Assembly (NCBI GenBank): GCA_033439255.1
Contig: CM065890.1
Location: 310,001-374,000 of the forward strand
DNA: 64,000 nt
Direction: 5' to 3'
DNA from: Hericium rajendrae
Taxonomy: Eukaryota > Basidiomycota > Agaricomycetes > Russulales > Hericiaceae
Made by a program: the position numbers and the translations under genes. The notes under the pieces are model-generated. The model saw only the letters and a list, made by a program, of their open reading frames with translations, was not told the origin of the DNA and searched no databases. The stretch's first letter is position 1; every line of letters starts with the position of its first letter. Shown here piece by piece: positions 19,236 to 57,261 of this stretch.

Positions 19236-21943
19236 CTACGCGCGCCCACACTCCTTCTTCCCCACGACGCGCCTCCACCACCTCTTGACGCCCGCCACAC
19301 CGCCCTTCTTCACCTTCGACACATCAACCGCCTTCTCCTCGCCCGACACGGGACTCCCCACAGGAGCAGCGCCAAACGCGGCCTTCCACGCAGCAGGCGC
19401 GTCAAACACAGGCGCCTCGCCGTCAAGCGAAACAATCGCCTCGCGCACGATCGCCTCGTCCTCGAGCACCACGTCTGCAGCGATCTTGTCTTTCACGAAT
19501 GCGTCGCTCGCCCATGTGAACTCGGGCACGGGGTCTCCGTACGGGAAGGTGCGGCCATCTGTGACAAACATGGAGGGGGTGGAGGTGAGTCTGTGGGCGG
19601 GCGTAGGGGGAGCGGGTACTGATGGAGCGCGTGGGTCAGCGGGAGAGTTGGAGTGTGAAGGATGGGAACGTACGTCGGAGGGGGTTGGACGCGACTCGGT
19701 CCCAGTTGCTGTGCGGCGCATGCGGTCAGTTCTAGCCACGTTGTGAAGCGCGTCAATGACATACATGGAGCTGAAGAAGGACATGGACTGGATGTCGTCG
19801 AATTTGATTCGCTCATGGACCTTCTTCTGCAGAGCCTGTTTCTGAACATGAGTACAGCGCCCATTGAAAAAGCTCTGTACGACGAACCTTGCGAATGAGA
19901 GCGACCAGTTCAGGGTCTGCATTCCGAGACGTGTCGATAGGGACCTCCGTCTCCAGAACAAGCCTCTCAAGCTCCCTGACAAGCTTATGGTCCCAAGGCA
20001 GCTACAGACCAATCAGCCATCATTCCCAACACCGACCCACACAACACTCACCCGCCCAAACGTCAGCGCATACACAACCACGCCCAGCGCCCACCAGTCG
20101 ACCGCAAACGAGTACGGCTCCGCGCGCCACATCTCCGGCGCCATATACTCGGCCGTGCCGACGGCGCCCTCCACCTGCGGGCTGAGGTATAGGAGCCCGC
20201 CGCGGATGGGTACGGACAGCTGCGAGCGCGCGAAGCGCTTCGCGAGCCCGAAGTCCGCGATGCGGACGTGCCCGTCGGGGCCGATGAGGATGTTCTCGAG
20301 CTTGAGGTCGCGGTGGAGGATGCCGAGCTTGTGCAGCGCGTTCAGGCCGGATGCCTGCGAGTGCGTTAGAACTTGAAGAAGGGAGGAGAGGGGAGGCTTA
20401 CGATTTGGGCGGTCCAGAGCTGGACGCGGATGGTAGGGAGCTGGGCGTTATCGCGCCAATGGTCCGATAGCGACATCGGACAATACTCCTGCAAAAAGAG
20501 AAAGACATCAGACCGAGCTATTGAATAGCTACAAACGTTGCTCACCATGAGAAGATAGAAATTGTCCATATCATGAAACGACGCCTCGATCCCAGCCAAG
20601 AACGGCCGGCCCGAGACCATCCTCGCAACCTCCTGCTCCACGAGCATCTGCCCACGCGCCTCCGAGCCGCTCACCTTCGCCTTGGGCACGGCCTTGATCG
20701 CGTACGTCTTGTGCGAGCCTCTGAGGCTGACGAGCGCAACTTTGCCGAAGCTGCCTTGGCCGACGAGCGCGTGGACGGTGAAGCCCTGGATCGAGAGCTT
20801 GAGGCGGCGCGCGGCGATGCGTTGTTTCATCAGTTCGGTGGGAGGCGCGATCGGCCTCGGGATGCGGATTCTGGTCGTGCTCGGCTTCGGGTTTGGGACT
20901 GGCTTGCGGATAGTGGGGGTCTGCTCATCCTTGACTTGAGCTTCCCCCGCCTGAGGGTTCTCATCGGCCTCCTTCGTAGGAATGGGCTTGCTGACGGTGA
21001 CCGCAACGGAAAGAGCGGACTGAGGCCTCGTCACAACGGCAGCAGAAGCGCTCCCGCGACCAAGCACAAGTGCAGAGCGGCCCTTCGGGACAGTGGCAGA
21101 TGCCGGAACAGGCCCAGACGTCTTCAACTCGGCGGGAGAATGGAAGGTCTTCCTCCTCGTCAGGCTGGCGCGCTCAAGAGAATGAACCGGAGCTGGAAGG
21201 GAGTTCCTCTGGCGACGGCTGTAGTTCGCGTCCCCAGGCGTAGGCGAACCTGGAGGGCTGGAGATCGAAGATGCCTTGGACACGACGAGAGATTTGCGGA
21301 CGCCGCCCTTGCGGACTGCAAGGACTGCGCGACGAGCATGAGTGCTGACTGGAGAGATGTTCTCAGTAGCAGAAGCATCGGACTTGATGTCCCGCGCTGG
21401 GGCGGCCTTGAGCGTCGCTCCACGGGGAGAGCCAGAGCTGGCCTTGCGTGCAGCGACCGCGGAGATCTTCTGCTGCTGCTCACTGATCTGGCGCCGAACG
21501 GCCTCCGTTGTCGCAGTGTGAGCAGGCCGCAAGGCAGGCGCCTTGAGTCCGGGAGGACACTTCGGGGCATTAGCAGCCCCAGTCGCGAGCAGGCGCTCCG
21601 GACCCGCGCGCGGTCTCAGGCGCGTCGGAGTCTGCAGGACGCCGTCGCGGTTGAGGGTCTTGGAGGCGGCGACGGCCTTGAGCGAGCGGGGAGACGGCGC
21701 CATGGCGAGCGACTTGGCTGAGACGAGGGCCTTCGAAACGATGAACGGCTTCGGGCGGTCGGGCGCATTGGGCGTCTTCGTGGGCCGGGTGGCCTTGGGG
21801 GTGGAGGGGATGGTGGCCTGGATCTTGACTCCAGCCCCCGTCTTGAGCATGGCGGGCTGACTCACCATGCCGCCGCTACCACGGGTGGGGAAGCCCGCGG
21901 AGCGGGACTTGAGGTTGTTGTTGTTGTTCTTGGGAGGAAACAT
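19236..21943 (-). CDS. AGC-like Ser/Thr protein kinase, family copy K1
   Basis: About 796 residues from seven exons, minus: 21943-20546, 20488-20402, 20354-20052, 20001-19888, 19835-19765, 19708-19674, 19618-19236. Residues 1-390 are basic and low-complexity but contain family motifs: [26 protein letters not shown], a Ser-rich RRNSLP, and SALVLGRG. The kinase domain follows: VGQGSFGKVALVSL (glycine loop), YAIKAV (Lys), [34 protein letters not shown] and VDWWALGVVVYALTFG, so all catalytic residues are present. A tail with FFSSINWDRV fits the AGC C-terminal extension. The last exon holds the family module [20 protein letters not shown] and ends KRWWRRVVGKKECGRA. The substrate is unknown. One intron (20401-20355) is shared with K5 but absent from K3 and K4. 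Confidence 0.92.
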
Positions 21944-21979
21944 GGTGTTGTGAAGAATAAGATAGAGAGTGGTGCGAAC

Positions 21980-22092
21980 TACGGATACTTAGATGTCGAG
22001 ATGACTGGACTGAAGCAAGAGTTCACGATACAGGCGGGAGGTGGGATTATGGGCTGCCATTGCAATGCGAGCTGGAGGCTGACAAGCTTTGG
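21980..22092 (-). promoter_or_regulatory. K-family promoter block, copy 1
   Basis: Read on the minus strand this block starts CCAAAGCTTGTCAGCCTCCA (22092 downward), contains TGGCAGCCCATAATCC about 40 bases later, and continues to AGTCCAGTCATCTCGACATC close to the gene. The same order of motifs lies upstream of all five K genes. The TATAAT-like core sits about 100 bases before the ATG and may serve as a TATA element (inference). Confidence 0.6.
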
Positions 22093-22099
22093 TGAAGCT

Positions 22100-23079
22100 T
22101 GTGCGGTCGTCGATCTGAGTCTTCCATAGAAAAAGTGAGTAGCGATTCGGCTGCATGCATCGCCGATGCAGCTTCACAGGAATAGGATACGGCTGTACAT
22201 GTTTATTCCATAAGATAGCTTGAAAACACGAGAAAAGGGCACGCGCCGAATCACACGAGGACATAGAAAACGCACAGAATTGGGCTCTAGTCCGCACAAG
22301 ACCTGCAGCCTCAGAACAAAGCCATGGAGACGTACGAATGATTATATTCCAGTCCAGTGTCCAGCGACCACCACCACGAGAGTTGACAAGCTGATAATTG
22401 CTCAGCTGCTCACTGGCAGCCAGGTTCGCGTACTGGTGGTGAGCTGCTGCCTTCCATCAGGACCTATAGATGAGTAGACGCGCATATGCGGGCTTGAGTC
22501 GCCTTGATACTGAAACTTCGAATCTCGCAAATAAAAGATATGATCATGCGACGTCAACGTCGTCGCGAGTCCTGGCGATGATATTGGATGAGCGTTGGGC
22601 GCTTACATTTAGCGCGGCGCTTTCCTCAGTTTCCCACGGGGTGTATTGATCTATCAATCGATTCATATCCTCGGGCCCGCAGATTCAATTTCCAACAAGA
22701 CAGCAAGCCGACAGCCTTGTGACCTTGTCTCCCGACTTTCAACTCATGTAGTCGTCTATGTCGCATCTGGACAGCTCCCGAAAGACCGATCGCGTCAACG
22801 AGTAGGTTTTTTTTCTGCGTGACATGCGTCATGACGCTATCCGAGATTGGATGCTTGGCCTTGCAGACAGCCGCGAGAAATTTTCATATACTGATGCGCG
22901 CGCCCTTCCATAACGTACTTCCAGTCAGGGGCTATTTGAGGGTCATTAGACGCATAGGCGACCGTGCGCAGGCTGTGCCCATCGGCATGTTTCGCTCGAA
23001 TGACCCTCGATGTCACGGAACGCGGTCGCGAGTCCGCCGCGGCCTGCATCATCGCCTCGTCACTGTTTAGCCGCCTCGG
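22100..23079. other. Intergenic, no supported gene
   Basis: The stretch between the K1 promoter and the next gene has only short frames on both strands and no splice-consistent model. I see no repeat or RNA gene in it. Confidence 0.45.
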
Positions 23080-23085
23080 TATAAA
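23080..23085 (+). promoter_or_regulatory. TATA box of the secreted-protein gene
   Basis: TATAAA lies 117 bases upstream of the ATG at 23202, in a GC-rich surrounding, a normal distance for a fungal core promoter. Confidence 0.45.
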
Positions 23086-23201
23086 GTGCGTCATATATTC
23101 CTTTTGACCTTCCAGGCTTTTCCCCGCGGCTTGCTTCCATTCACGTTCAACCTACGACGACGTCCGTCTACGCCTCTCTCTCCTGCCCGACCGTCTTCAC
23201 T

Positions 23202-23903: not shown

Positions 23904-24458
23904 ATAATGACGGACATGTGCTATCGGGACTCTTTACTCTTCAGGGACTATGACTTTGTTACGCTATACTCTGGACTTTCTGAGCTTTACGCTTTCTTTA
24001 CGATACGAATAGCGCTTCAGCGCGTAGTTACGTTGTAATTACTGTAATTTTGGTGATTTGGACGCCGTGGAGTCTTCATACCGAGATCGGAGTGCTCTCA
24101 AATTCCGGAGCGTTCACAAGTCCCATTTCAAAAGGTATTCATTCGCATCTCCATCCACACAATGCTCTTGATCCACACAGAAAAAACCATATAGACGAAA
24201 CCATGAAACGAGGTATGCAAGCAGGCCGAGGTGAGCACCTCAGCCAGGTCTCCGATATCCCACACCTTCGAGATCAAACTCGAAGAGCGCCGTATCGCAT
24301 CGCGACCCTATCTTCATCTTTTGCACGTAGCCCGTCTTGGATAAACCAAGAACGGACAAGTCCTCGCTGTCGTCTGAACCACGCGGCTGTGGCCGGTGTG
24401 GGCGTTGCTGCCCGTAGGCAGGCCGTGAATCGGACCCGGTGTGCTGTCCGCGCCCTTA

Positions 24459-24632: not shown

Positions 24633-27187
24633 CTACTTCTTCCCCACCACGCGCTTCCACCACCCCTTCACGCCCTTGACGGCCTTCGACACGACCGGCG
24701 CCTTCTCCTTGTGCGAAGACACCGAGCTGCCGACCGCCGTCGACGCAGAATCGAACGCGGCCTTCCACGCGGCGGGCGTGTCAAGTACGGGTGCGTCGCC
24801 GTCTAGGGAGATGATTGAGATGCGCACGAAGTCATCGTCTGCAGGCGCGGAGCCCGCTGCCGGTGCTGGCTTGTCTGCAGGCGCGATGTCCGCTGGCTTG
24901 TCTGCGGGAATGGAGTGTGCCGCTGGCTTGTCTGCGGCAAATGTAGGGTTCAGGGATGCGAGATGCTGATGAGCGCGTTGTGGGAGGGGACGAGGGACGA
25001 AAGTGGGGACCACGGGGAACTGGTCGAGGATAGAGGATATGCTGGACGTGCTGGACGTGGTGGAGATGCTGTCGTCCGCGAGTCCGCCGTCTGCCGCTGG
25101 CTTGTCTACAGCGGATGTGAGGCTCGTGGATGCGAGCTGCAGGTGTGCAGTCCGCGGAAGGGGACGGGGAATGAAAGTGGGAACCATGGGGAACTGGTCC
25201 AGGATGGACGAGATGCTAGACGCGCTAGATGCGTTGGACATGTTGCCGTCCGGGAGCACATCGTCCGCTGCTACCTTGCATGTGGCGGTCGCAGGGATCA
25301 TCGCCGCGAGCTGGCGGTGTGCGCGCTGCGGAAGGGGCCGGGGAATGAAAGTGGGAACTATGGGGAACTGGTCCAGGAGAGATGAAATGCTAGACGTGCT
25401 GGACGCGTTGGACATGCTCTCGTCCGCGAGCCCATCATCCGCCGCTGCCTTGTCTGCGGCGAATGCAGGGCTCATCTCCATGAGTTGCCGGTGCACATCC
25501 TGCGTGAGAGGGCCAGGAATACCTACGGGGACCGGGGGAAACATATCAAGAATAGACGAAAATGACAAGCTCGACAAGCTCGACATACTATCCCGCGCAC
25601 GGGGCGCGGGGACTGAAAGGTGAAAACAAGTGAGCAGAGGTATGAGGGGGAAGAAGGCGAGCACGCACATGTGTCGGACTGTACGTCAAAGTCCTGGATT
25701 TCAATCTGGAAATGAGGCGGGGCAGCGAGAGACTCGTGGACACTGGTGCTCTCGTCCGATCCGATGAGAGTATTTGTGGAAGTGTCCGGGTCGCTGGCCT
25801 TGGCTGTCGCGCAGACACTAGCGTCCTCGTCCGATCCAACGAGGGTGCTGATAATGGAGGTGTCCGCGTCGCCGACCTTGACCATCGCGCTCGCGTCCGC
25901 CGCGCCTTCGTCGCCAGAGGACATGTCACGAAGGACAATAGGCTCGGCCTCCACACCCGCGGGCTGTAAGACGACGGGCTTGACGACCTTGCCCATAATG
26001 AGCGGACCAGACTGAGACCTCGTCACAGAAACGACAGCCTTCGCCCACCCAAGCAGCGGCGCAGAGCTGCTCCTCGTAACCGTAGCAGCATGCACAGAGC
26101 TCCTAGGCTTGATAGGATCCTGCACGCGAATGGCGTTCCGCCTCGTCAAGGTGCGTTCGGACAGGCGCTCCGCGGCAGAGAGCGAGTTGCGCTGGTGGCG
26201 GGTGCAGCCGCCGCCGATGTGCGGGGGAGAGGAGGGAGGAGAGGATGTAGAGGATGGCCTGGAGACGACGGCCAGCGGCTTGCGCACGCCGCCTTCGCGG
26301 ACTGCAGGAAGGGGGCGACGAGCAGGCGAGCGGGGGAAAGGGACGTTCTCGGTGGCATTGGCCGTAGCAGTAATGACCTCCGCCTTGATGACCTCCGCCT
26401 TAGGACGGCTGACCGAGGCTGGCCGGGGGGTCGCGTCGCGGGCGGAGGTGGCGATCTTGGGCTTCGCAGAGGGGATAGGCTCGGACTTGCCCTTGGCCTT
26501 GCGCGCGCTGACCGCGGCGGCCTTCTGCTTCTGCTCGCTGATCTGCCGGCGGACGGCCTCGACTGCGGAAATGCGACGGCTGGGGGTCTTCGCGGCATCG
26601 GAGGCCTTGAGGCTAGGAGAGGCCTTGGGAGTGCCAGCCGCCGCGGCGGTGTCGGGGACCTTGCACGCAGTGAGCACGGGAGCCTTGTTCGCCTTCGGCG
26701 CACTGGAGCGCTTCACGATGTTGAGAGGCTTGCAGGCGGCGACAGCCGCCGCGTAGGTCTTCGGGGATCCGGGAGCCTTGAGACCGGGAGGGAGCTTGGG
26801 AGTGTCAGCCGCCCCGGCGATGCCGAGAGCCTTGGACGCGGCGCGCGTCTTGAGGAGGCCAGAAGCCTTCGGGGCGCTGGAGCGCTTGACGATGTTAAGA
26901 GGCTTGCAGGCGGCGACGGGCTTGAGGGTGCCGGGAGCGGGGGATACGTTAAGCACCTTCGAAGCCGCGAGGGCCTTGGATACGACGAAGGGCTTCGGGC
27001 GCGTCGGTGCCTTGGGAGGCTTTGCAACCTCGACGGCCTTGAGGGTGGGGGCGGCAGGCTTGGCCTTGGTGCCAGAGGTGGGCTGACCCGTCTTGCGCAC
27101 GGGATATTGGCCAACCTTGCCGCCACTGGCGCGGGTAGTGATACCCGCGGAGAGGGACTTGAGGCTGTTGTTCTTGATAGAAATCAT
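24633..27187 (-). CDS. K-family copy K2, kinase domain deleted
   Basis: About 832 residues from two exons, minus: 27187-25669 and 25612-24633. The N-terminal half is a full family N-terminus: [75 protein letters not shown] and SSAPLLGWAKAVVSVTRSQS. It stops exactly where the kinase domain begins in the other copies (IQDFDVQS, compare [13 protein letters not shown]), then jumps to the splice donor that in K3 follows the AGC tail. The C-terminal exon keeps the family module ([20 protein letters not shown]) and the end VKGWWKRVVGKK, but adds four tandem units of about 59 residues containing SSISSILDQFPVVPTFVPRP. Both frames are open, so it may encode a working non-kinase adaptor; expression is unproven. 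Confidence 0.85.
24960..25560 (-). repeat. Tandem repeat of about 177 bp inside K2
   Basis: The motif GGGGAACTGGTC (plus strand) recurs near 25014, 25186 and 25362, with a diverged fourth unit near 25530. Each unit encodes about 59 residues of the type SILDQFP.VPTFIPRPLPQR followed by AADDGLADE. The unit corresponds to a single-copy segment in K3 and K4 (SPAFAVAKVPADIILADEDL), so it was amplified in K2. Confidence 0.8.
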
Positions 27188-27209
27188 AGTGCAAAAGTGA
27201 TAAGATAGA

Positions 27210-27338
27210 AGGTGTGAAGTGCGAGTACTTGAGGGTCGAGATGACTGGACTGAAGTAAGAATTCACGAGGAGAGAAGAAGCGGGGAATGGGATTATAGGC
27301 TGCCATTTGGATACGGGCTGGAGGCTGACAAGCTTTGG
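27210..27338 (-). promoter_or_regulatory. K-family promoter block, copy 2
   Basis: On the minus strand CCAAAGCTTGTCAGCCTCCA, then TGGCAGCCTATAATCC, then AGTCCAGTCATCTCGACC precede K2, in the same order and spacing as upstream of the other four copies. Retention in front of the kinase-less copy suggests it is still transcribed. Confidence 0.6.
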
Positions 27339-27339
27339 C

Positions 27340-28514: not shown

Positions 28515-29669
28515 ATGCGTGGATTCGTACCCGATCCTGCAGGACGCGGGACAGTGGCTATTCTCTGGTCCTGCCTCACCACGCTAGGTCTCTGCGCGTG
28601 GACATCGCTTCATCTTGCTCTACCATCAAACCGGACATTCGGTATCTTTTACATCGACAAACTCATCTCTGCTCATGACCATGGGCTTCTCGTCAAAATC
28701 TGGTGGATGATCATAATGCTCCTCGCTCCAGAATGGGTTTTGACGAGCGCTGTCTATGACTGGTGCCGAGCTTACCAGGCCATGAGACGCATCAATCGGA
28801 AGGGAGAGCTTTCCGGCACGGACATATGGACCATGAACGATGGTTTTTTCGTGGACATGGGGGGGTTCACTCGCAATGGGGAGGGAGTCCACGCAAGGGA
28901 AATTGTATGGCTCATAAAAAAGAAGAAGATACCGCCACAACCCTCCCGCGCCAAAGAGATCTGCGACAAGAGCAAATCAGATTCCCTCGGGAAAACCCTG
29001 ACCTGCGCGCAGGTCCTGTGGCTCGCTATCCAATGTCTCGCACGCGCCATCCAACGTCTTCCTATGTCGACGCTCGAGTTCGGCACCATCGGCTATGTCT
29101 TCATTGACGTCGCCGTCAATGGCATCTACTGGTACAAACCTAAGGACGTTTTCACGCCCATAGAAGTGCTTTCATGGGAGGCTCGCAGGCTGTCTCGTGA
29201 TGGTAAGAAGTTGGGTGCACCTGGTGATGCGCCGGCCGGAGATGTTGCAAATAAGGAACAGAAACACTTACTTCCTTTCAAGACGGTGCCACTTCGATGG
29301 CAACGATCGCAAGCTTGGCTTGGATGGGTGGCGCAGGAACACGATGATATAATTACGAGGCTCACAGTCGTCTCAGTTTGCACGTTGTATGGCGGGTGGC
29401 ACTGCCTGGCATGGAACTTCGCCTTTCCATCTGTCGCTGAGAAATGGTTATGGCGTATAACATCCATCCTGACTACTCTTCCTGGTCTCGTGATGTTCGT
29501 GACAGAGAAGTTCAATGGCCAAATGTCCTATATTCTTGCTTTCTTTGCTGTCGTTTTATACATCGTTTCTCGTTGCTTCATACTTGTGGAGATGTTTATC
29601 GGACTTCGTCGTTTACCTGCAGGCGTCTTTGATACAGTTCGATGGACGACTTTCCTGCCTCACGTGTAA
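28515..29669 (+). CDS. Multispan membrane protein, fungal family of unknown function
   Basis: Single-exon frame of 384 residues. The early segment TVAILWSCLTTLGLCAWTSL is characteristic of a large Agaricomycete membrane family (IWSCL..T...CTW..VH). It is followed by a hydrophobic IWWMIIMLLAPEWVLTSAVY, a conserved DGFFVDMGGF, the KSKSDSLGKTLTCAQVLWLA segment leading into a further span, LEFGTIGYVFIDVAVNGIYW, and C-terminal spans LTVVSVCTLYGGWHCLAWNF, ITSILTTLPGLVMFVTE and YILAFFAVVLYIVSRCFILV. Family members often start with a signal peptide in an upstream exon; here an acceptor CTGCAG directly precedes the ATG, but I found no phase-consistent upstream coding exon, so the ATG at 28515 is used. 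Function is unknown. Confidence 0.82.
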   Translation: MRGFVPDPAGRGTVAILWSCLTTLGLCAWTSLHLALPSNRTFGIFYIDKLISAHDHGLLVKIWWMIIMLLAPEWVLTSAVYDWCRAYQAMRRINRKGELSGTDIWTMNDGFFVDMGGFTRNGEGVHAREIVWLIKKKKIPPQPSRAKEICDKSKSDSLGKTLTCAQVLWLAIQCLARAIQRLPMSTLEFGTIGYVFIDVAVNGIYWYKPKDVFTPIEVLSWEARRLSRDGKKLGAPGDAPAGDVANKEQKHLLPFKTVPLRWQRSQAWLGWVAQEHDDIITRLTVVSVCTLYGGWHCLAWNFAFPSVAEKWLWRITSILTTLPGLVMFVTEKFNGQMSYILAFFAVVLYIVSRCFILVEMFIGLRRLPAGVFDTVRWTTFLPHV

Positions 29670-34136: not shown

Positions 34137-37100
34137 CTAGGCAATCGTGGTATAGCTCCATATTCGCGCGGCCCAGTCGCCGCTGCCAGTGGCGAGAATG
34201 CTGCCTGCGGGACTAAGGTCGATAGAGATGACTGCGCGCGGGATCAGCGCGGGCACACAGAGTCAAAAAGCAACGCGCACCGGAGTTCTTGTGTCCCTGC
34301 AGCATCAGCTGCACCGTCGCCGTCCGCGCATCCCAAAACTGCACCCCACGGTCCTTCGAGCCCGACACGACCCACTGCCCGTCATGCGACACCGCGACGG
34401 ACAGCACGTAGTCCTTATGCCCCGTAAAGTTCATCGTGCACGCGCTGCCCTTCTCCCCGCCCTCCTTCTTCCCCCCGCCGACCGCAGCCATGCTCTCCTT
34501 CCGCCCGCCCGCACCCGCCAGCATCGGGCGCACGTCCCAGTACTTGAGCGTCTTGTCCAGGCTCCCGCTCACGAGGCCCTTCCCGTCCGGCGTGAACGCG
34601 ACGCTGTACACGCTGTCCTTGTGGCCCTTCAGCCGCTCGACGAGCGCGCCGGTCTGCACGTCCCAGATGCGCACGATCGTGTCGAGCGAGCCTGCGGCGA
34701 CGAGACGGCCGTCGGGCGAGATCGCGACGGACGTCACGCCCGAGTCGACCGCCTCGGGCTCGTGGATCGGGAGGATCTTGCATGTTCCGTCGTTCATGTC
34801 CCATATGCGCGCTGTCTTGTCGCCTGAGCCGGATACGATCAGGCGCCCGTCGGACGAGAAGTCGAGCGAGTAGATCTCCTGCTGGTGGCCATCGAAGACA
34901 TTGCGGATGCGACGCTTCGCGATGTCCCAGATCTATGGGGCAGGAGTCAGTGGCGCGCGGCTGCGTTAGGTTGAATCAGGACGCACCCGGATTTGCTTGT
35001 CCTCAGCGCCGGTCGCGAGGTACTTCCCGTCTGGACTGAAGCACACGCTGCGAATGTACAAGTCGCCCGTCTTGCTCGCGTTCTCGTCGACAAGCACGCA
35101 GGTCTTCTGACCCGTCTTCGTGTCGTATATCTGCGCAGTGCGATTACATCCCGTCGCAAGATACTTCCCATCTGCCGAGAAGCGGACACAGCACACGACC
35201 GACTCGTGCATGAGGGTATGCACCAAGTTCACATCAAGTGTGCGCTTGACCTTCGGATTAAACACGGCAAACCAGTCGCTGCCCTCCTTTTTGAGCTCCG
35301 CGGGGACATGCGACGGGTCGAGGTCCTCAGGAAACCCCACGCCGACATTATGTTGGATGGGCACCATCGCGCCGGTGGTGGGCGTCACAGGCTCACGTTC
35401 ACGCTCGCTAGGCGCTGTGATGGCCAGAGGGGCTGGCCCTGGGGCTGCGGCAGAGACGGCGGCGGGCGCTGAGATGGTGAAGGGTCCGGCAGCGCTGGGA
35501 GGTGGAGGCAGGCCGGGTCCACCTGGTGGCGGGAGCTTGGCGAGAGGACCGGGGCCACCGGTGGGGAGAGAAGGGGAGAAGGGTTCTGGGAAAGCCATTA
35601 TCAGCCGTCAGAAAAACATAGAGAGATTAATATAGTTGTGAATGAAAGATGACCATCTTAGCATGGACGCGGGTTGCCAACAAAGGGCACGCCACAACCG
35701 CGATGATCGCGGATTGGGCATCAAAACGGACCAAAACGTGCTCCAAGGCCGTGCCGAACACGGCAAGCGCTTCGCCAGAGCGGGAAGGAAGCGCAATAGA
35801 TCCAGCCAGTTTGGAGATCCGGTTTCCATACTAGTTCACGACAAGAAACGTTGCAGATTCAAGGCGAAAGTGCAGATATACGTGGGAAATGGTCCAAAAG
35901 GAACACGGAGGGACCATCTAGGACGCAGGGGCGTAGAACTCGAAGTACGCACCTGGCCTGTCCGTCTTGATCCTGTCCGTCTTGATGCGCTTGCTCTCGC
36001 GCTGGTCCCGCTCTCGATCTCTCTCCCTTTCACGATCGCGTTCTCTCTCGCGTTCCCTCTCACGTTCTCGATCCCGCTCCCGCTGCTGCTCGCGTTCGCG
36101 TTCGCGCTCCCGATCGACGCGCTCGTCGCGCCGCATGTACGGCGGTTCGCCGTACACTTGGGGAGGCGGCGGGGGCGGGACGGCGGGCTGGGGTTGGGGC
36201 TGGGCCTGACGGGCGGCATGCAGCTCAGCGCGCAGACGACCGATCTCCTCTTCGTATTGCTGGCGGATTTTGCCATGCTGGGACTCGAGATCGTAGAGGG
36301 ACTGACGGATAATGTTGAGTTCGTTGACCTGCGACGATACTGTGTGGGGATACTAATAATCAGCGATGTGTCGTAAGGCGGGGCAAGATAGAGGGGGATC
36401 GTGGTCTCGGGATGGACGGAGGTCGAACGTGATCTCGTCGATGTATTATCTCACGAGATCTCGTCAATAGATGAACGATGTAATTGTCCATCTATTTCCC
36501 ACCAGGCACCATAAACGGGCCAGGAAGAAGGTGGATTCTGACCCAAATGCGAGTCACGGCAATGTCAACTCGACTGAGCCTTTGACACTGTCCGTACGTG
36601 CCAGCATCGGCGCCGGCATTTAGATGGTCCTCCACATCTGTTGCGCGTCATGTAAGAGTGCTGTAGCTTGAACACCGTGCAGAGTCAAGGCTTTACTCCA
36701 AAAAGCCACCCATGCAACCAAGCAGCGCCCAACATCCCGACTGCTGCGACGGAGGCTTCGTTTCGATCATGCCCGCTGGTGGCGCTTCGATCATCCTCCC
36801 AGGAACGGAAATCACAGGTGAACGATCCGAATTCGAAAAGAGCGGACGTGTCCAAAGAAGGCCAGGAGGGGAATCATAACGGGAACATAGCCATCCTGAA
36901 GATCCTCCATCGTGGGCACAAGGCAGAGAACAAAGACACAGGACGAGAGGCGCGAACCGTGCCGTGCCACTTCGCCCTGTCGTCCTACAGGGGCAGCTCG
37001 ACTTCCATCATATTTCTACTGCCCCTCGACTCTCTCCAAGCAACCGGAGAAAAGATCCGAGAGAATCGAAGCCAAGCACAACGCGCCGACCAGCCACCAT

Positions 37101-38190: not shown

Positions 38191-38320
38191 CCAAAGCTTG
38201 TCAGCCTCCAGGCCGTATCCCAATGGCAGCCTATAATCCTGACCCCCGTCTCTCCATCTCTTCGTGAACTCTTACTTCAGTCCAGTCATATCGATTCTCA
38301 AGTACTCGAACTTTGCACCT
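38191..38320 (+). promoter_or_regulatory. K-family promoter block, copy 3
   Basis: CCAAAGCTTGTCAGCCTCCA (38191) is followed by TGGCAGCCTATAATCCTGAC, TCTCCATCTC, GTGAACTCTTACTTCAGTCC and CAAGTACTCGAACTTTGCAC, ending 20 bases before the ATG of K3. Near-identical to the K4 block. Confidence 0.65.
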
Positions 38321-38340
38321 GTTATCTACTGTTTTCCAAC

Positions 38341-41314
38341 ATGTTTTCTATCGCCAAGAACAATCCCAAGTCCCTCTCCGCGGGTTCCACTACTCGTGGC
38401 GGCGGCGGCAAGGTCAGCCAATCCCCCGTGCGCAAGACGGGGCCCTGCAACAAGGTCAGGCCTGCCCCCGCCTCCACTCCCAAGGCCGTCGAGCCTGCGC
38501 GGCCTTCGAAGGCACCGAACCGCCCGAAGCCTCTCGTCGCGTCGAGAGTCCTCAATATCGCTCAAACTCCCGGCGCCTTGAAGCCTGTCGCGGCCTGGAA
38601 GCCTCTCAGCATCATCAAGCGCTCCGCCCCGAAGGCCACGGCGGCTCTAGCTCCTGCCATGTCCAAGGTCCTCAACGCTGAGATTGATATCCCCAAGGCG
38701 CCTCCCAGCCTCAAGGCTCCCGATGTCGCCAGGACCTACGCCGCAGTTGTCGCCGCCTGCAAGCCTCGGAACATCGTCAAGCGCTTCAGCGTCCCGAAGG
38801 CTGCTAAGACTGCTAAGACTGCGAAGGCTCCAGACCTCTTCAAGGCCCCCATCGCGTCCAAGATCCTCGACACCCCTGGGGCTGGCGACGCTCCCAAGGC
38901 AATTCCCGCACCCAAGACTGCCGATGCCTTGAAGACCTCCAGCACTCGAGCTACCGCAGTCGAGGCCGTCCGCCGCCAGATCAGCGAGCAGAAGCAGAAG
39001 GCCGCCGCCGTCACCGCGCGCAAGGCCAAGGCCAAGTCCGAACCTACCCTTCCTCTTCCCGCGAAGCCCAAGGTCGCCACCGCCGCCCGCGATGCGACGC
39101 GCCCGTCAGCCTCCGCCAGCTGCCCGAAGGCGGAGAGGGTTACTGCTACGGCGAAGGCCGCCGAGAATGCCCCATTTCCCGGCACCCCTTCCCGCCGCCC
39201 CCTTCCCGCAGTCCGCAAGGGCGGCATCCGCAAGTCGCTGGCTGTTGTCTCCAAGGCATCTCTTCCGCCCTCTCCTGCACATGTGGGCGGTTGCTGCAGC
39301 CGCCACCAGCGCAACTCGTTCTCCGCGGCGATACATCTGTCTGAGCGCGCCAGCTTGACGAGGAAGAATGCCATTCGCAAGCGGGATCCTGCCATCAAGC
39401 CGAGAACCTCTGCACCTGTTTCTGTGGTTCCGAGGAGCAGCTCTGCGCCCCTCCTTGGCTGGGCGAAGGTTGCCAGTGCCGTGTCGAGGTCTACTTCTGG
39501 CCCTCTCATTCTGTGCGAGATCGTCAAGCCCGTCGTCGCACAACCGGCGGATGCGAGTGCGGAGGTCCAGCCCAAGGACCTCCGAGTCGTGAATCCCGAC
39601 ACGCCCTCTGGTGACTCTGACGACGCTGCGGACGCCACGGACACCACCAGCATCAGCACCGGCGTCGGGTCCGACGACGAGGACACCAACGTCCACCAGC
39701 CCCCTGCCGTCTCTCGCCCCCCGATCTCGATCCGGCACTTCGACATTCAGTCCATCGTGGGCCAGGGCGGCTTCGGCAAGGTCGTGCGCGCCACGCTCAA
39801 GGGCTCGCAGCAGACATACGCGATTAAGATCGTCCCGAAGACGAAGCTGCGCTACGACTACGGAGCGCTCGCGCAGATGCTCCAGGAGCAGGAGGTCGCG
39901 CGTAGTGTTTCCGGCGAGCAGTTCCTCGCGGGTATCGATGCATCTTTCCACGACGCGACCAACTTCTACCTCGTCATGGTGAGTCTCGCGCCTTCCCCTA
40001 TGGTCCTAGTCGATGCTGGCGCTAACATCATCCCCCGTAGGACTACCACCCAATGTCGCTCTTCGACTACTGGAACAACCACGCCCGTCCCCCGCCGAGC
40101 CTCATCCGCCTCTGGAGCGCCGAAATCGCCTGCGGCCTGAACGCGCTGCACAAGCGCGGGATCATCCACCGCGACGTCAAACTCGAAAACGTCCTGCTCG
40201 GCGCGGACGGCCACGCGCGCGTCGCGGACTATGGGCTCGCGCGCCGCTTCGAGGCGCCCGCAGCGACGCCGCGGGTGCTCGCGGTATACGTTGACGGACG
40301 GCGCGTCGCCACGCCCGTGCGGCGGCCGATGACGGCGGGGGTGATGGGGACGCTTGCGTATATGGCGCCGGAGATGCTGTGTGAGCTGCGGTACTCGTAT
40401 GCTGTCGACTGGTGGGCGTGGGGCGTGCTGCTGTATGCTCTGTGCTTCGGACAGGTAAGTCGGGTGTGAGAACAATGAGGTTGATCGCTGACTGGTCTGC
40501 AGTTCCCGTGGGATCATGAGGACTACGACGAGATGAAGCGTCTCGTGCACACGCCGGTTCCGCTTCCGAACTGGGCGTGGACATTCGACCCGGAGCTGGT
40601 TGCCATGATCAATATGGTGCGTTTCCTCATCTTCTCGACGGTTCGTCCACTCATGGCTGTGTAGGCCCTGGAGAAGAATCCTGCGGACAGAATCACGTTC
40701 AACGGGATACAAGCGATGCCATTCTTCTTGGCTATGTATGTTTTCTTCGTATTTGGCTAGAGTGCAAGCGCTGACATTATACCTGATTTGGCAGTAATTG
40801 GGGCGCTGTCGCCGTCACTTCTATCAGACGTATGTTTTCACCTCTTGCTTCCCTCGCCTTGTGCTTACCGGTCTTTATTTCTTCAGTCCCAGCACCCCGC
40901 GCGAGGCCTACCATGCCCAGCACCGCATCTATTTCATCTACCTCATCCACCCTCTCCTTCGGCTCCTGCGACATGCCCACCTCCCTCGCGCACGATGCGC
41001 ATCCACAGTTCACATGGATGAGCCCCGCCTTCGCCGTAGCCAAAGTACCGGCGGACATCATCCTCGCAGACGAGGACCTCGTGCGCGACGCGATCGTTTC
41101 CCTGGACGGCGAAGCCCCTGTCTTCGACACGCCCTCCGCATGGAAGGCCGCGTTCGAGTCTGCGGAGTCCCTCGGCCGGTGCGCGACGGCTGTCGGCAGC
41201 TCGGTGTCTTCGCACAAGGAGAAGACCGCGACGCCGGTGGTGGCGAAGGCGGCGAAGGGTGTCAAGAAGTGGTGGAAGCGCGTTGTGGGGAGGAAGGAGT
41301 GCCGGCGCGCGTAG
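38341..41314 (+). CDS. AGC-like Ser/Thr protein kinase, family copy K3
   Basis: About 899 residues from six exons: 38341-39978, 40041-40454, 40503-40616, 40665-40735, 40795-40829, 40887-41314. N-terminal 465 residues are Lys/Pro/Ala-rich with family motifs [67 protein letters not shown]. Kinase: VGQGGFGKVVRATL, YAIKIV, QEQEVARSV, HRDVKLENVL, ADYGLARRF (DFG is DYG), GTLAYMAPEM, VDWWAWGVLLYALCFGQFPW. The end fits an AGC tail (MPFFLAINWGAVAV). The last exon carries the module [20 protein letters not shown] and ends [16 protein letters not shown]. Active-site residues other than the F-to-Y change are intact. K1 and K5 have an extra intron in the region of exon 2. Confidence 0.94.
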
Positions 41315-43340: not shown

Positions 43341-43470
43341 CCAAAGCTTGTCAGCCTCCAGACCGTATCCAAATGACAGCCTATAATCCTGACCCCCGCT
43401 TCTCCATCTCTCCGTGAACTCTTACTTTAGTCCAGTCATCTCGACCCTCAAGTACTCGAACTTCGCACCT
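43341..43470 (+). promoter_or_regulatory. K-family promoter block, copy 4
   Basis: CCAAAGCTTGTCAGCCTCCA (43341), GACAGCCTATAATCCTGACC, TCTCCATCTC, GTGAACTCTTACTTTAGTCC and CAAGTACTCGAACTTCGCAC, in the same positions relative to the ATG as in K3. Confidence 0.65.
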
Positions 43471-43490
43471 ATTATCTACTGTTTTCCAAC

Positions 43491-46460
43491 ATGTTTTCTA
43501 TCTGCAAGAGCAACCCCAAGTCCACCACTCGCGCCGGCGGCGGCAAGGTCAGCCAATCCCCCGTGCGCAAGACGGGGCCCAGCACCAAGGTCAGGCCTGC
43601 CTCCGCCTCCGCCCTCAAGGCCGTCGAGCCTGCGCAGCCTTCGAAGGCACCGAACCGCCCGAAGCCCCTCGTCGCGTCGAAGGCCCTCAACAATGCCCGG
43701 TCTCCCGGCGCCATGAAGCCCGTTGCGGCATGGAAGCCTCTCAACATCATCAAGCGCTCCACCCCGAAGGCCACGGCGGCTCTAACTCCTGCCACGCCCA
43801 AGGTCCTCGACGCTGAGGCCAATGATGTCCCCAAGGCGCCTCCCAGCCTCAAGGCTCCCAATGTCGCCAGGACCTACGCCGCAGTTGTCGCCGCCTGCAA
43901 GCCTCTGAATATCGTCAAGCGCTCCAGCGCCCCGAAGGCTGCGAAGACTGCGAAGGCTGCGAAGGCTCCAGACCTCTTCAAGGCCCCCATCGCGTCCAAG
44001 ATCCTCGACACCCCTGGGGCTGGCGACGCTCCCAAGGCAATTCCCGCACCCAAGGCTGCCGATGCCTTGAAGACCTCCAGCACTCGAGCTACCGCAATCG
44101 AGACCGTCCGCCGCCAGATCAGCGAGCAGAAACAGAAGGCCGCCGCCGTCACTGCGCGCAAGGCTAAAGACAAGTCCGAACCTACCCTTCCTCTTCCCGC
44201 GAAGCCCAAGGTCGCCACCACCGCCCGCGTTGCGACGCCCCCGTCAGCCTCCGCCAGCCGCCCCAAAGTGGAGGGGATCACTGCTACGGCGAAGGCCGCC
44301 GAGAACGCCCCATCTCCCGGCACCCCTTCCCGCCGCCCCCTTCCCGCAGTCCGCAAGGGTGGCATCCGCAAGCCGCTGGCTGTCGTCTGCAAGACATTTT
44401 CCTCTAACAGCGCTCCCGCCTCATCTGCACATACGGGCGGGTGCTGCAGCCGCCACCAGCGCAACTCGCTCTCCACAGCGCAGCATCTATCTGAGCGCGC
44501 GAGCTTGACGAGGCAGAACGCCATTCGCAAGCGGGATCCTGTCATCAAGCCGAGGACCTCTGCACCTGTTTCTGTGGTTCCGAGGAGCAGCTCTGCGCCC
44601 CTCCTTGGCTGGGCGAAGACTGCCAGTGCCATGCCGAGGTCCATATCTGGCCCTCTCATACTATGCGAGATCGTCAAGCCTATTGTCGCGCAGCCGGCTA
44701 ATGTGGATGCGGACGTCCAGCCCAAGGTCCTCCAAGTTATAAATCCCGACACGCCCTCTGACGACGCAGCGGACTGCTCCTCCGACGTCAGCTTCGACAC
44801 CCTCATCGGATCCGACGAGGATGCCAGCGTCCATCAACCTCTTGCTGCCTTGCCTCGTCCTCCAATCTCGATCCGGCACTTCGAGATCCAATCCGTCGTC
44901 GGCCAAGGCGGCTTCGGCAAGGTCGTGCGTGCCACGCTCAAGGGCTCACAGCAGACGTATGCGATCAAGATCGTTCCGAAGATGAAGCTGCGCTACGAAT
45001 ACGGAGCATTCGCGCAGATGCTCCAGGAGCAGGAAGTCGCGCGTAGCGTCGCGGGGGAGCAGTTCCTGGCGGGCATCGACGCCTCTTTCCACGACGCGAC
45101 CAACTTCTACCTGGTCATGGTGAATCCCGACTCATATTCTTTCCCATCCCATTGACGCTAACTCGTCTTCTTCCCTACAGGACTACCATCCAATGTCCCT
45201 CTTCGATTACTGGAACAACCACGCCCGCCCCCCGCCGAGCCTCATCCGGCTCTGGAGCGCCGAAATCGCAAGCGGCCTGAACGCGCTGCACAAGCGCGGG
45301 ATCATCCACCGCGACGTCAAACTCGAGAACGTCCTGCTCGGCGCGGACGGCCACGCGCGCGTCGCGGACTATGGGCTCGCGCGCCGCTTCGAGGCGCCCA
45401 CGGCGACGCCGAGGGTGCTCGCGGTATACGTCGATGGGCGACGCGTCGCCACGCCCGTGCGGCGGCCGATGACGGCGGGGGTGATGGGGACGCTTGCGTA
45501 TATGGCGCCGGAGATGCTGTGTGAGCTGCGGTATTCGTATGCGGTCGATTGGTGGGCATGGGGCGTGTTGTTGTATGCGCTGTGCTTCGGGCAGGTGAGT
45601 CTGCCAGTGTTGTGAGGAGCGTGGGATTGGCCGCTGACTGGTATCCAGTTCCCGTGGGATCATGAGGACTACGACGAGATGAAGCGTCTCGTGCACACGC
45701 CGGTTCCGCTCCCGGACTGGGCATGGACATTCGACCCGGAGCTGGTTGCCATGATCAATATGGTGCGCTTCCTCATCTTCTCGACGGTTCGTCCACTCAT
45801 GGCTGTCTAGGCGCTGGACACGAATCCCGCGGATAGGATCACGTTCAACGGGATACAGGCGATGCCATTCTTCTTGGCTATGTATGTTTTCTTCGTATTT
45901 GGCTAGAGTGCAAGCGCTGACATTATACCTGATTTGACAGTAATTGGGACGCTGTCGCAGTCACTTCTATCAGACGTATGTTTTCACGCTTTGCTCCCCT
46001 CGCCTTGTGCTTACCGGTCTCTAATTTTACAGTCCCATCACCCCGCGCGAAGCCCATTATCCCATCTATTCCATCCTCCTCCTCCTCCGCCTCCTCCACT
46101 GTCTCCCTACTTTCCAATGACATCCCCGCAGCCCCCATGCATGACGCGCACCCGCAATTCACATGGATGAGCCCCGCCTTCGCCGCAGCCAAAGTACCGG
46201 CGGACATCATCCTCGCAGACGAGGACCTCGTCCGTGACGCGATCGTTTCCCTTGACGGCGAAGCGCCCGTTTTCGACACGCCCGCCGCATGGAAGGCCGC
46301 GTTCGAGTCTGCCGAGTCCCTCGGCGGGAGCGCAACGGCTGTCGGCAGCTCGGTGTCTTCGCACAAGAAGACCGTGGCGCCGGTGGTGACGAAGGCCGCG
46401 AAGGGTGTGAAGAAGTGGTGGAAGCGCGTTGTGGGGAGGAAAGAGTGCCGGAGCGCGTAG
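43491..46460 (+). CDS. AGC-like Ser/Thr protein kinase, family copy K4
   Basis: About 896 residues from six exons with the same layout as K3: 43491-45119, 45181-45594, 45649-45762, 45811-45881, 45941-45975, 46033-46460; the five downstream exons have exactly the same lengths as in K3 (414, 114, 71, 35, 428). Motifs: VGQGGFGKVVRATL, YAIKIV, HRDVKLENVL, ADYGLARRF (again DYG), [64 protein letters not shown] and the end [16 protein letters not shown]. Even intron sequence is close to that of K3. Inferred recent duplicate or product of gene conversion. The acidic linker before the kinase domain (SSDVSFDTLIGSDEDAS) is the most divergent part. Confidence 0.94.
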
Positions 46461-46479
46461 GGGGGAGATGCGAGGCGGG

Positions 46480-53062: not shown

Positions 53063-53284
53063 GTCAAATCGTCGAATCACCTGGGGAAGGCTAAAGCCGT
53101 AAGGTATATCGCAGAGGATGGGAAGAGCCCGCCTACAAATCTTGGATCGACCGCATACATATAAAAATCACCGCCCACAAGTAAGCCCTGGCGATCCAAT
53201 CTACTCATCGACATCGGCGGTCCCGAAGCAGCAGCGCCTTCCGGCGCCCCGCACTAGTCGATCACTTTCACCGCACCGGCGCCT

Positions 53285-53485
53285 TTATACAATGTGCGAG
53301 CGACTGAGCGGGACTTGAAAGAGCTTGCTCTGAGTCTTTAGCACAGCGCGTGTGAATACGTAGGCATCCAGGCAGAATATAGTAGACGAAGCATCTTCTG
53401 GTCCCAGGTACTCGTTGTACTTTGCGGTGACGAATGAGTAGTGGTGCGTCTGAAGAATGCCTGCGATAGATAGCGAGTGGGTCAA
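53285..53485 (-). pseudogene. Possible fragment of a second DUF6534-like gene
   Basis: A minus-strand frame preceded by an acceptor (TCTATCGCAG) reads LQTHHYSFVTAKYNEYLGPE and ends at a stop at 53285. The pattern of paired histidines in a helix followed by a short loop resembles the second extramembrane segment of DUF6534 proteins. No further exons were found. It lies head-adjacent to the complete gene. Similarity is weak and chance cannot be excluded. Confidence 0.22.
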
Positions 53486-54342
53486 AAATGTCCATAGAGT
53501 CCCAGAGCTTAAACCTGATGCACTGGATTCGTCGATGTTCCGCCCTCATCATGGCTTGTCTGCATGCGCGGGAGTTTATGTACAAGGACCCTGGCGCCGC
53601 ACTTGTCGAGTGCCGGAGAGCATGGATTGATGTAGTAAAAGCAAACCAAAGCTGTTCAGCCCCGTCATTTCCGTTGACTGGTCCCCAGGAAGATCGGAAC
53701 AGCCGATATGGCGCTAAATCCGTCAGAATGGGCGCGTCTCGAGGCCATCACTGCAACTCTGAGCGCTATCTCCAAGTGTACTTGCGAGCGTGTCCTGTAC
53801 GACATATCCATGCTTCATGCTTCTCCCGCACTACTAGTACCGGCGCTCTCCAGCTGAAGCAAAGCGTAAGTGACACCAGAAATTGCAATTGATATCCTCA
53901 TCGATGAAGCATGACCGTTACAACGGGACCACGAACCGAAGCGAGGCATGCAGCTGCCAACAGGAAAATGAGCTCCCGAGCCGGATCTAATGTGTAGCAG
54001 CGCCGAGATCTAACTCGAAGTGCGCCATATCACATCGCGGCCCCTTTCATCGCATGACGTCCGTCCTGGTATACACCGAGGACTGCCCGGCGCCTCGTTA
54101 TCGTCCAACACTTGTGGTGTCTTCGTCCTTGTGGCCTGCGTGGGTATCATCACCCTAGACCGCGACTTGAACCCGGCGTGCTCCTTGCGTTCTGTGGCTG
54201 TGGACGGCGTTCTGTGGAGTTGGTTTGGCCGACATCGCTTCTCCCCTCCAACTTCCGCTCCTCCCCGGCTCCCCGATCGCCGCTCTCCCCTCGCACACCG
54301 ATCCCCACTTCTCCGCCACACACCAATGTCCGCTCCGGCCCC

Positions 54343-57261
54343 CTACGCGCGCCCGCACTGCTTCTTGCAGACGACGCGCTTCCACCACTTCTTTAGCTTG
54401 TCGCCCTTCGGCAGCCTGGACATGGGGACCGCCTTTGCCTCGCGCGACGGCGCGGGACCGCCAGATACAGCGGTCACCTCTGATGCGCGCGACAACGCAG
54501 AGCCGTCGACGGGGGCAATGCGCGCGCCGCCGGAGAACGCGGCCTTCCATGCCGCGGGCGCATCGAAAACGGGCGCCTCGCCATCCAGGGAGACGATCGC
54601 ATCGCGCACGAGCTGCTCATCCGCGAGGACGGCGTCCGCTGCGGCCTTGTCCGTCGTGAACGCGGCGCCCGCCCATGTGAATTGCGGGTGCGCGTCAGGA
54701 TGCGCGGGGACGGCGGTGGCGTCTGGAGTGAATGCGGATATGGCGGGCCGAGGGCGAGGACGGCCACTTCGGTTCGCGGAAGGCGCGGAAACTGGGGGAA
54801 ACCAGATGATGAGCTGAAGAACAGATCGGTAAGAGGGACGACGTACGTTTGATGGGCATGGATGCAATACGGGCCCAGTCGCTATGTCGCCAGCGGGACG
54901 TCAGTCATGGGCAACTTATGGAGGACTGAAGGACTCACATGTTGCAGAAGAAGGGCATGGCTTGGATGGTATTGAATGTGACCCTGAACATGGGGTTCTT
55001 CTCGAGTGCCTACATGGCCGTCATGAGCACTACAAAAGCAAGGAGAAAAACGGCAAGCTTACCATGTAGATCACCATGCGCAGCTCCGGATCACACACCC
55101 AAAACGGGGCAATGGGTATCTTGGTATATAAAATAAGTTTCTTGAGCTCTGCGAGCTTGCTGTGATCCCACGGCAGCTGTTCAAAGGGTTAGTTCTCAAC
55201 TTCAGCAGCTATATCATTCAGTACTCACATGGCCGAAGCACATCGCGTACACAGCGACGCCGAAGGCCCACCAGTCGACGGGATACGAGTACGGCTGCTC
55301 GAGCAGTAGCTCCGGGGCCATATACTTCCACGTCCCCATGACGCCGGCTGTGGTCGGGTTCATGTACATGACTCTACCAGGGATGGGCTTGCCGTTAGCG
55401 AACACCGCAGGCACGGTCAGGACAGGGACAGGGAAGCGCTTCGCGAGACCGAAGTCGGCGATGCGGACGTGCCCGTCGGCGCCGAGGAGGACGTTGTCGA
55501 GCTTGAAATCGCGGTGGACGATACCGCGCACGTGCAGCGCATTCAGGCCAAATGCCTGGTGCGATCGAGCAATCAGTCGATTGATATCACTGAAAAGTAG
55601 CGTGAAATATGTACCATCTCAGCGGTCCAGAGCCGGGTGAGCTCAGAGGGAATGGAGCCGGCATCACGCCAGTAATCGTACAGACTGGTCGGGTAATAAT
55701 CCTAAAAACCCAGATATATCAGGCCAAGCTCGTCGAGGAGGGAGATAAATCTTACCATCAACAAATAAAAGTTGATCGAATCATGAAAAGATGCCTCGAT
55801 GCCTGCTAAGAACGGCAGGCCCGAGACCATGCGCGTGATCTCCTGCTCGCGAAGCATCTGCGAGCGCAGAAGGGGACTGTGCAACTTCGACTTGGCGACG
55901 ATCTTGACTGCATACGTCCTCTGCGAGCCCTTGAGCGAGGCGAGAGCGACTTTGCCAAAGGCCCCTTGGCCGATGACGGACTGGATATGGAAGTCTTGGA
56001 TCGACAGCTGGAGGCGAGGCGAGGCAAGTGAGGTGAGAGGCGAAGTGACCAGACGGTGGTCGACATTGGCGTGCTCGTCGTCCGACTGGACGAGTGTGCC
56101 GGCCGAGCTGAACGTGTCCGCGTCGCTGGTCCATGCATTGAGATTGACCTCGATCATAGCCTCGTCAGCGGAGGAATCGTCGCTGTCATAGACTGGGGCC
56201 GCATTGGGCAGGAGGTCCTTGTCGGCGGCAAGAGGAATGGCAAGCCTGACAGCCTTGCTCACAATGGCGGGGCCGGACTGAGAGCGTGTCACAGCGGCAG
56301 CAGGAGTCCTCGCACGACCAAGCAAAGGTGCAGACCCGCTCTTCGGAACCATACGAGCAGGAACAGACGACTTCGGCTTGACGAAGGCGTTCTTCCTGAC
56401 TAGGCTGGAACGCTCGGGAAGACACGCCGCGGCGTAGAGCGTGTTGCATTGGTGGCTGCCGCAGGATCCTGGCGAGCGAGCAGAAGAAGTAGAGCTACTG
56501 CTGATCGAGTTCCTACAGACGCTGGCGAGTGGCTTGCGGACGCCACCCTTGCGGACTGCGGGGATAGGGCGACGAGTGGGCGTGCTGGGAGGAGGGACGT
56601 TCTCGGAAGCGTCAGCCTTGGCGGTGACGATCTTCGCCCTGGGGCGGCTTGTGGAGGCTGACGGAGGAGTCGCGCCGCTGGTGATAGCAGCCTTCGGCTT
56701 CGTGGAGGGAAGAGGCTCGGACTTGGCTTTGCGCGCAGCGACGACGGCGGTCTTCTCCTTCTGCTCGCTGATTCGACGGCGAACAACGGCAGCGGCGCGA
56801 GGTGCAGAGGCACAGGGAGGGGACAGGCCAGGCGGAGCCGTGGGACCACCTGTAGAAAGAGAAACGTCGAGTATCTTCGAAGCGGCGAGTGTCTTGAGGC
56901 CATCGAGAGGCTTCGTCAGCCTTGGAGCCTTGGGAGCGGTGGATGGATTGGCGACGTCGGGGGCTTTGAAGGTAGCAACAGATCTAAGAGTGCCAGGGAA
57001 TTGGGCCATGGTGAGCACCTTCGAAGCTGCTATGGTCTTGGACGCGACCGGCGGCTTCGGGCGGTTAGGTGCCTTGGGAGGCCGAGCAGGCTCGACGGCC
57101 TTAGGATGAATGGGGGCGGGGGCAAGGTTGGCCTTGGTGCCAGATGCCGAGGGCTGACCCGTCTTGCGCACGGGAGACTGGACGGCCTTGCCGCCGCCGA
57201 CGCGGGTGGTGGGACCCGCGGAGTGGGACTTGAGGTTGTTGTTGTTCTTCGCGAAAAGCAT
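54343..57261 (-). CDS. AGC-like Ser/Thr protein kinase, family copy K5
   Basis: About 862 residues from seven exons, minus: 57261-55756, 55701-55615, 55555-55229, 55176-55063, 55009-54939, 54881-54847, 54791-54343. The N-terminal 428 residues are basic with [44 protein letters not shown], a [20 protein letters not shown] segment, and RSQSGPAIV. Kinase: [78 protein letters not shown]; all catalytic residues are intact. AGC-like tail MPFFCNIDWARIAS. The last exon holds [20 protein letters not shown] and ends [16 protein letters not shown]. Its exon pattern matches K1 (exons 2, 4, 5 and 6 have the same lengths: 87, 114, 71, 35), so K1 and K5 form one subgroup and K3 and K4 another. Confidence 0.94.

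Follow-up and report, generated by a model that had tools for sequence, protein, structure and literature searches.

A diverged AGC-like kinase family in Hericium rajendrae with six paralogues, two of which lack the kinase domain

A family of six AGC-like genes

The stretch of DNA analysed here (the window, 64,000 nucleotides, C13:310001-374000 of a 46.8 Mb genome in 19 contigs) carries five paralogous genes, K1 to K5, on both strands and within 38 kb. Four of them, K1, K3, K4 and K5, encode a complete AGC-like kinase domain and K2 lacks it. A sixth member, K6, is also kinase-less and lies on another contig (C6:1977637-1979524, forward strand, 610 aa, two exons). The family, its gene structure, the kinase residues, the kinase loss, the constraint, the motif change and the shared promoter were read from the sequence. 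Taken as a whole, they are best explained by a local expansion of a kinase whose hydrophobic motif would be a switch in cis, whose ends would work autonomously and whose kinase-less members would be competitors or scaffolds; we give this explanation a probability of about 0.55. The family is most likely a diverged, lineage-specific AGC-like variant, and we assign it to no named subfamily. No prior description of it was found in the titles and abstract starts of open-licence papers.

The initial annotation had described a five-member family clustered within 38 kb. Whole-genome searches with the C module of K4 and the N part of K5 returned K1-K5 and K6 and no further members, so the family has six members, and the clustering holds for K1-K5 only, K6 being outside it. 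The placement of the genes on both strands stood (K1, K2 and K5 reverse, K3 and K4 forward), as did a kinase domain in four of the five, by Pfam for K1, K4 and K5 and by 96% identity to K4 for K3. One candidate relative of the C module, at C1:5211753 (E 0.28), was rejected because inspection by eye suggested the frames of an unrelated enzyme there. No relatives of the C module turned up in a scan of prokaryote genomes, a result that is expected for a fungal gene and uninformative on fungi. The genome is taken to be fungal from its short introns and from three hydrophobin matches above the cut-off, where 14 control genomes gave none.

The gene models in Table 1 were predicted from the DNA sequence. 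K1, K3, K4 and K5 have 5 or 6 introns each, of 47-62 nt; intron 2 is present in K1 and K5 and absent from K3 and K4, the two most similar members (96% identity in the kinase, dS 0.285). K2 was modelled with a single 56-nt intron; of 17 open alternatives, this one was taken for its correspondence to the final intron of K1, K3, K4 and K5. The window also holds an open frame with WD40 repeats that lies between kinase genes (34966-35598, reverse), a 384-codon open frame with no Pfam match at E 0.001 (28515-29669, forward) and an ORF with an RNase H domain (10811-11653, reverse; PF00075, 1.1e-8) that is perhaps a retroelement remnant.

Table 1. Features of the five genes in the window (positions are those of the window).
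Feature	Position	Strand	Remark
K1, AGC-like kinase	19236..21943	-	796 aa, gene model
K1 exons	20546-21943, 20402-20488, 20052-20354, 19888-20001, 19765-19835, 19674-19708, 19236-19618	-	gene model
K2, kinase-less paralogue	24633..27187	-	832 aa; exons 25669-27187, 24633-25612
K3, AGC-like kinase	38341..41314	+	899 aa, gene model
K3 exons	38341-39978, 40041-40454, 40503-40616, 40665-40735, 40795-40829, 40887-41314	+	gene model
K4, AGC-like kinase	43491..46460	+	896 aa, gene model
K4 exons	43491-45119, 45181-45594, 45649-45762, 45811-45881, 45941-45975, 46033-46460	+	gene model
K5, AGC-like kinase	54343..57261	-	862 aa, gene model
K5 exons	55756-57261, 55615-55701, 55229-55555, 55063-55176, 54939-55009, 54847-54881, 54343-54791	-	gene model
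K1 shared promoter block	21971..22092 (C13:331971-332092)	-	76% to K4's
K2 shared promoter block	27203..27338	-	88% to K4's
K3 shared promoter block	38191..38340	+	92% to K4's
K4 shared promoter block	43341..43490	+	search query
K5 shared promoter block	57288..57412	-	78% to K4's
K2 C-terminal linker, 174-nt (58-aa) tandem units	24900..25421	-	three copies; others 74%, 71% to reference
K1 hydrophobic-motif segment DPVPEFTWASDAF	19497..19535	-	0/5000 shuffles; coordinates reckoned from model
K3 hydrophobic-motif segment, 13 residues	40994..41032	+	0/5000 shuffles; coordinates reckoned from model
K4 hydrophobic-motif segment, 13 residues	46143..46181	+	0/5000 shuffles; coordinates reckoned from model
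K5 hydrophobic-motif segment, 13 residues	54658..54696	-	5/5000 shuffles; coordinates reckoned from model
K1 conserved 20-residue segment	19374..19433	-	motif scan
K2 conserved 20-residue segment	24753..24812	-	motif scan
K3 conserved 20-residue segment	41096..41155	+	motif scan
K4 conserved 20-residue segment	46245..46304	+	motif scan
K5 conserved 20-residue segment	54535..54594	-	motif scan
K1 aromatic-basic end WWRRVVGKK	19254..19280	-	motif scan
K2 aromatic-basic end WWKRVVGKK	24636..24662	-	motif scan
K3 aromatic-basic end WWKRVVGRK	41270..41296	+	motif scan
K4 aromatic-basic end WWKRVVGRK	46416..46442	+	motif scan
K5 aromatic-basic end WWKRVVCKK	54361..54387	-	motif scan

The kinase domain and its place among AGC kinases

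Pfam model PF00069 matched K1 (7.4e-55), K4 (1e-47) and K5 (2.4e-47), and only kinase-type models exceeded the cut-offs when K1, K4 and K5 were searched whole and K2 in two pieces. The top PDB matches were PKC isoforms for both K4 (1.9e-35) and K5 (1.2e-38), followed by AKT, SGK and RSK, and for K5 also PKA; nearly all of the best 60 matches of each were AGC-named, the rest being a few unnamed kinases and, for K5, one labelled EGFR. These matches support the AGC-like identity. The beta-3 Lys, the alpha-C Glu, HRD, DFG or DYG, and APE are intact in all four kinase-bearing members, suggesting that their kinases should be active; the DYG that K3 and K4 have instead of DFG is also found in PKC iota.

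AGC kinases are phosphorylated by PDK1 at a position of the activation loop. Counted three residues back from the G of GT, this position is Gly in all four kinases. Phosphorylation there would thus not activate them, and because the Thr is missing we call the family AGC-like. A Ser or Thr occupies the position in six of seven in-genome relatives (C1b, C5a, C10, C9, C11a and C11b) and Trp in the seventh (C11c); a canonical-looking in-genome AGC kinase, C11d, has Ala and is thus also without Ser or Thr. The seven relatives resemble the K kinases in several respects: their activation loop carries an insert, some of their exons end at matching profile positions (most of all in C10), and their tail contains DW and a P.[FY][TA][FYW] motif. 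They differ in that no match of their own was found to the K N part outside the kinase, to the C module or to the K promoter.

A tree was built from 30 kinases, and in it the K family was recovered with support 100. The family grouped with C10, C5a and C1b (73), and these were joined with the C9/C11 group at 51, whereas the PKC references grouped with three canonical-looking in-genome AGC kinases (85), with K outside. FastTree gave 0.657 for K with C10, C5a and C1b, and there the C9/C11 group was not adjacent. The support values are those of an unrooted tree, whose rows were joined from exon pieces, a few containing intron-derived residues beside splice sites. Five of 35 rows, those shorter than 170 residues (C3frag, C7a, C10b, C13a and C9b), were left out, as were kinase loci L058 and L066 and most of the 149 genome kinase pieces, so that the tree covers part of the kinome. 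Its named references are two PKC, and the other AGC rows are unnamed in-genome kinases, where the label Sch9-like is given from a motif. The placement of K beside C10, C5a and C1b among AGC kinases is weakly supported.

The initial annotation had proposed a kinome tree as a check against a standard conserved subfamily, and the answer is partial: K falls outside the PKC-reference group, but the support with its neighbours is modest and the references are PKC only. That the kinases are a named conserved AGC subfamily (PKC, S6K/Ypk or PKA) with a decorated tail would agree with PKC isoforms as the best PDB matches and with the few named references and modest support of the tree. The grouping with C10, C5a and C1b in both trees, outside the PKC references, and the absent loop Thr argue against it, and we consider it quite improbable.

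Compared with PKC, AKT, SGK, RSK and PKA, the K proteins are alike in kinase sequence, in the FF..[ND]W tail start and in the F-T-W-type segment behind it. They differ in having Gly for the loop Thr, H or V as the first aromatic of the motif, a basic N-terminus of 381-493 residues, their own 19-residue segment and WWKRVVG end, no Pkinase_C match, and two kinase-less paralogues. Pkinase_C (PF00433) did not appear among the matches of K1, K4 or K5 with E of 1 or less, in a search whose HMMER filters drop weak matches.

The N-terminal part

The N part is basic, with 58-76 Lys and Arg versus 18-31 Asp and Glu, and the long basic N-terminus is probably disordered; no Pfam model matched it over the cut-off. 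The shared N-terminal motifs of the initial annotation were recovered in part by a motif scan with mismatches allowed: a VRRQISEQKQK-like motif is present in 5/5 genes of the cluster, an SPVRKTG-like motif is missing from K1 and present in the other four (YPVRKTG in K2), and AVRKGG occurs in K1, K3, K4 and K5, with the variant AVREGG in K2. An N-part insertion is common to K2, K3 and K4 and absent from K1, K5 and K6.

The C-terminal module contains an AGC tail

The kinase domain of the K proteins is followed by FF..[ND]W, the usual start of an AGC C-tail. Behind this start lies a diverged hydrophobic motif (HPQFTW) that is common to the seven other in-genome AGC-like kinases, which have DPFPLYTFQSERF, HPYPHFAYTSPAF, DPHPSYTFTSPML and similar sequences at this place. 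The AGC hydrophobic motif has the pattern F-x-x-[FY]-[ST]-[FY]; against it, the K segment fits the motif of the seven relatives, yet its first aromatic is H or V. With a matrix built by eye from the seven relatives, this segment was the best place of the whole protein in K1, K3, K4 and K5, and no comparable match was obtained in K2 (1423/5000 shuffles matching) or K6 (181/5000, a weak match). K6 has DAHSQFSWRRPTS at the homologous place (DAHSQFSW, core QFSW), with a score of -1.0 versus 11.9-21.7 in the kinase-bearing copies. Alignment of the whole tail with hhalign gave E = 3e-4 (probability 40%; reversed control 0.15) against the seven relatives, and E 0.16, worse than the reversed control of 0.056, against four of them. 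This profile comparison is weak, so the case for homology is carried chiefly by the motif and where it lies, and less by the tail as a whole.

As far as the sequences tell, the family-specific parts of the C module are the 19-residue segment and the WWKRVVG end. An 11-residue motif is exact in K1, K3, K4 and K5 and reads ISLDGDAPVLD in K2, and the whole-genome search with the K4 C module found no convincing match to the 19-residue segment outside the family. The C-terminal tail is shared as had been claimed, with WW[KR]RVV in 5/5. The privacy claimed for the module therefore applies to these two parts and not to the AGC C-tail and hydrophobic motif, and even the aromatic-basic type of end is not private: similar ends occur in C9, C11a-c and C5a (for example FADLRRWAKKLRA and KFRDWLGWKS), and the C-terminus of C10 is aromatic and hardly basic.

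No named domain was found for the C-terminal part above the Pfam cut-off, in agreement with the initial annotation; the best match of the K2 C part was DUF4688, at E 0.018. The wording of that annotation suggested an undescribed domain that folds and has a biochemical activity of its own, for which the lack of a Pfam match and the strong conservation of the 19-residue segment and WWKRVVG in six paralogues could be cited. However, the predicted structure, made from five input sequences, is of low confidence (mean pLDDT 51.5) and mostly without structure; its helices (47-50, 63-70, 83-94 and 123-136) are all short, the best one being at the end, and the first part of the module is the AGC tail with its hydrophobic motif. 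We consider a folded domain of this kind improbable. The helical moment of the end was not clearly above that of shuffles (49-267/2000 across the six members).

The genes were copied as DNA together with their promoters

A search of the genome with 150 nt of the K4 promoter returned exactly six places, one per family member, at 74-100% identity, and the sharing among K1-K6 spans 120-150 nt. Sequence directly upstream of the start codon is common to 15/15 gene pairs, and patches of the 3' flank (its first 12-422 nt) to 13/15. From the shared promoter and the retained introns it follows that each gene was duplicated singly, at the DNA level and along with its promoter. This bears out, together with the shared 3' flank, the earlier proposal that a single gene with its flanks was the unit that moved. 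A coding explanation of the conserved 3' flank was rejected because each copy has its own pattern of frame breaks. All six promoters contain a nearly constant stretch like CCAAAGCTTGTCAGCCTCCAG (for example within 43341-43490), which is a possible binding site.

K2 and K6 have lost the kinase and kept both ends

Both K2 and K6 read from FD[VI]QS, where the kinase begins, directly into an intron that corresponds to the last one of the kinase-bearing genes; the K2 kinase part is missing between FDVQS and that intron. The linker before the C module is amplified in both. An origin of K6 by retroposition was rejected, since the last intron and the promoter are retained. K2 and K6 group together in the C-part tree (96), and in the N-part tree K2 goes with K3/K4 (83) and K6 lies outside (64). 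A single kinase loss would need a later gene conversion, because the N-part tree joins K2 to K3/K4 and not to K6. Our reading of these trees is one kinase loss, after which the N part of K2 would have been converted by K3/K4; the alternative is two losses at the same place.

The 19-residue segment, the WW end and the basic N part are kept in 6/6 members. Omega between K2 and K6 was 0.44 (0.34-0.58) for the N part and 0.38 (0.24-0.56) for the C part, with 0/1000 bootstraps at or above 1 in either; that of the K3-K4 kinase was 0.06 (95% 0.03-0.10). With such an N-part conversion, the K2-K6 value for that part may partly reflect a kinase-bearing past. These data suggest that both ends have a job of their own, and targeting or docking by the ends is most likely, being the simplest reading of the sequences.

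K2 and K6 might instead be decaying pseudogenes within an ordinary kinase expansion, the ends having no function by themselves. Such decay would account for the lost kinase, the hydrophobic motif that is gone or altered and the repeat-expanded linker of K2; the genome also has a decayed relative at C3:54959 and a stop-bearing one at C11:1684957-1686403, and the constraint may in part predate the kinase loss or stem from gene conversion. Against it stand the reading frames of K2 and K6, open over 832 and 610 codons and with splice signals that could be used, the omega of about 0.4 in both parts, and the retained WWKRVVG and promoter block, which make it unlikely in our judgement.

A proposed mechanism

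The explanation that we favour starts from a diverged AGC-like serine/threonine kinase that expanded locally, its copies being made as DNA with promoter and 3' flank; activity, docking, targeting and competition are the steps that we infer. The most likely role of the diverged hydrophobic motif is to dock in cis at the PIF pocket of the small lobe, which would make it the one regulatory switch that remains. Such a motif, serving the kinase in cis, is described for AKT (PMC7703976) and for trypanosome AEK1 (PMC10720658). We propose the same for the K family because the kinase-bearing copies have the motif, K2 has lost it and K6 has it in eroded form; since K6 keeps DAHSQFSW, the argument rests mostly on K2.

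The N-terminus and the last 60-80 residues (the 19-residue segment and the aromatic-basic, perhaps helical end) would form a second unit, sending the protein to a site or partner with no need of the kinase. That the ends act without it is suggested because they are kept in all six members, with omega of about 0.4 between K2 and K6. Exactly the kinase part would have been lost from one ancestral copy. K2 and K6 would descend from that copy and, with both ends and the promoter retained, would sit at the same sites as competitors or scaffolds that phosphorylate nothing. The more specific idea that the family makes its own antagonists, K2 and K6 being made together with the active kinases and competing with them for sites while the motif works in cis and the ends alone, is one that we advance tentatively. 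If it is true, the erosion of the motif after kinase loss, full in K2 and partial in K6, is a natural experiment on its cis role, and the constrained kinase-less paralogues separate the role of the AGC tail for the kinase from the tail's own role. AGC-like kinases without the loop Thr would also test how far the hydrophobic motif alone controls activity.

Other kinases in the genome

AGC kinases make up about 20% of kinases across the 30 fungal proteomes of one study (PMC2838846), and 13 are given for Wolfiporia cocos in another (PMC5030230). A second AGC-like kinase cluster lies at C11:1594728-1686403 (loci L028, L030, L032, L035, L043, L045 and L047), with three open kinases, one stop-bearing copy and one place with an N-lobe match only; C11c, with HCD and NFG, looks inactive from its sequence. 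Locus L046 (C3:54959-55264) is a decayed kinase fragment with HRN and NFG for HRD and DFG, and is 64-65% identical to K3/K4 and 41-44% to K1/K5 over 89 profile positions. FunK1-type kinases (PF17667, Pkinase_fungal) are likewise expanded in this genome, and K scores below their cut-off of 24.1 bits (K1 17.7, K4 11.6, K5 not listed). The genome has 127 pieces matching this model, which also matches in 4/14 control genomes, and dense clusters of them lie at C4:109315-255046 and C7:46579-258240.
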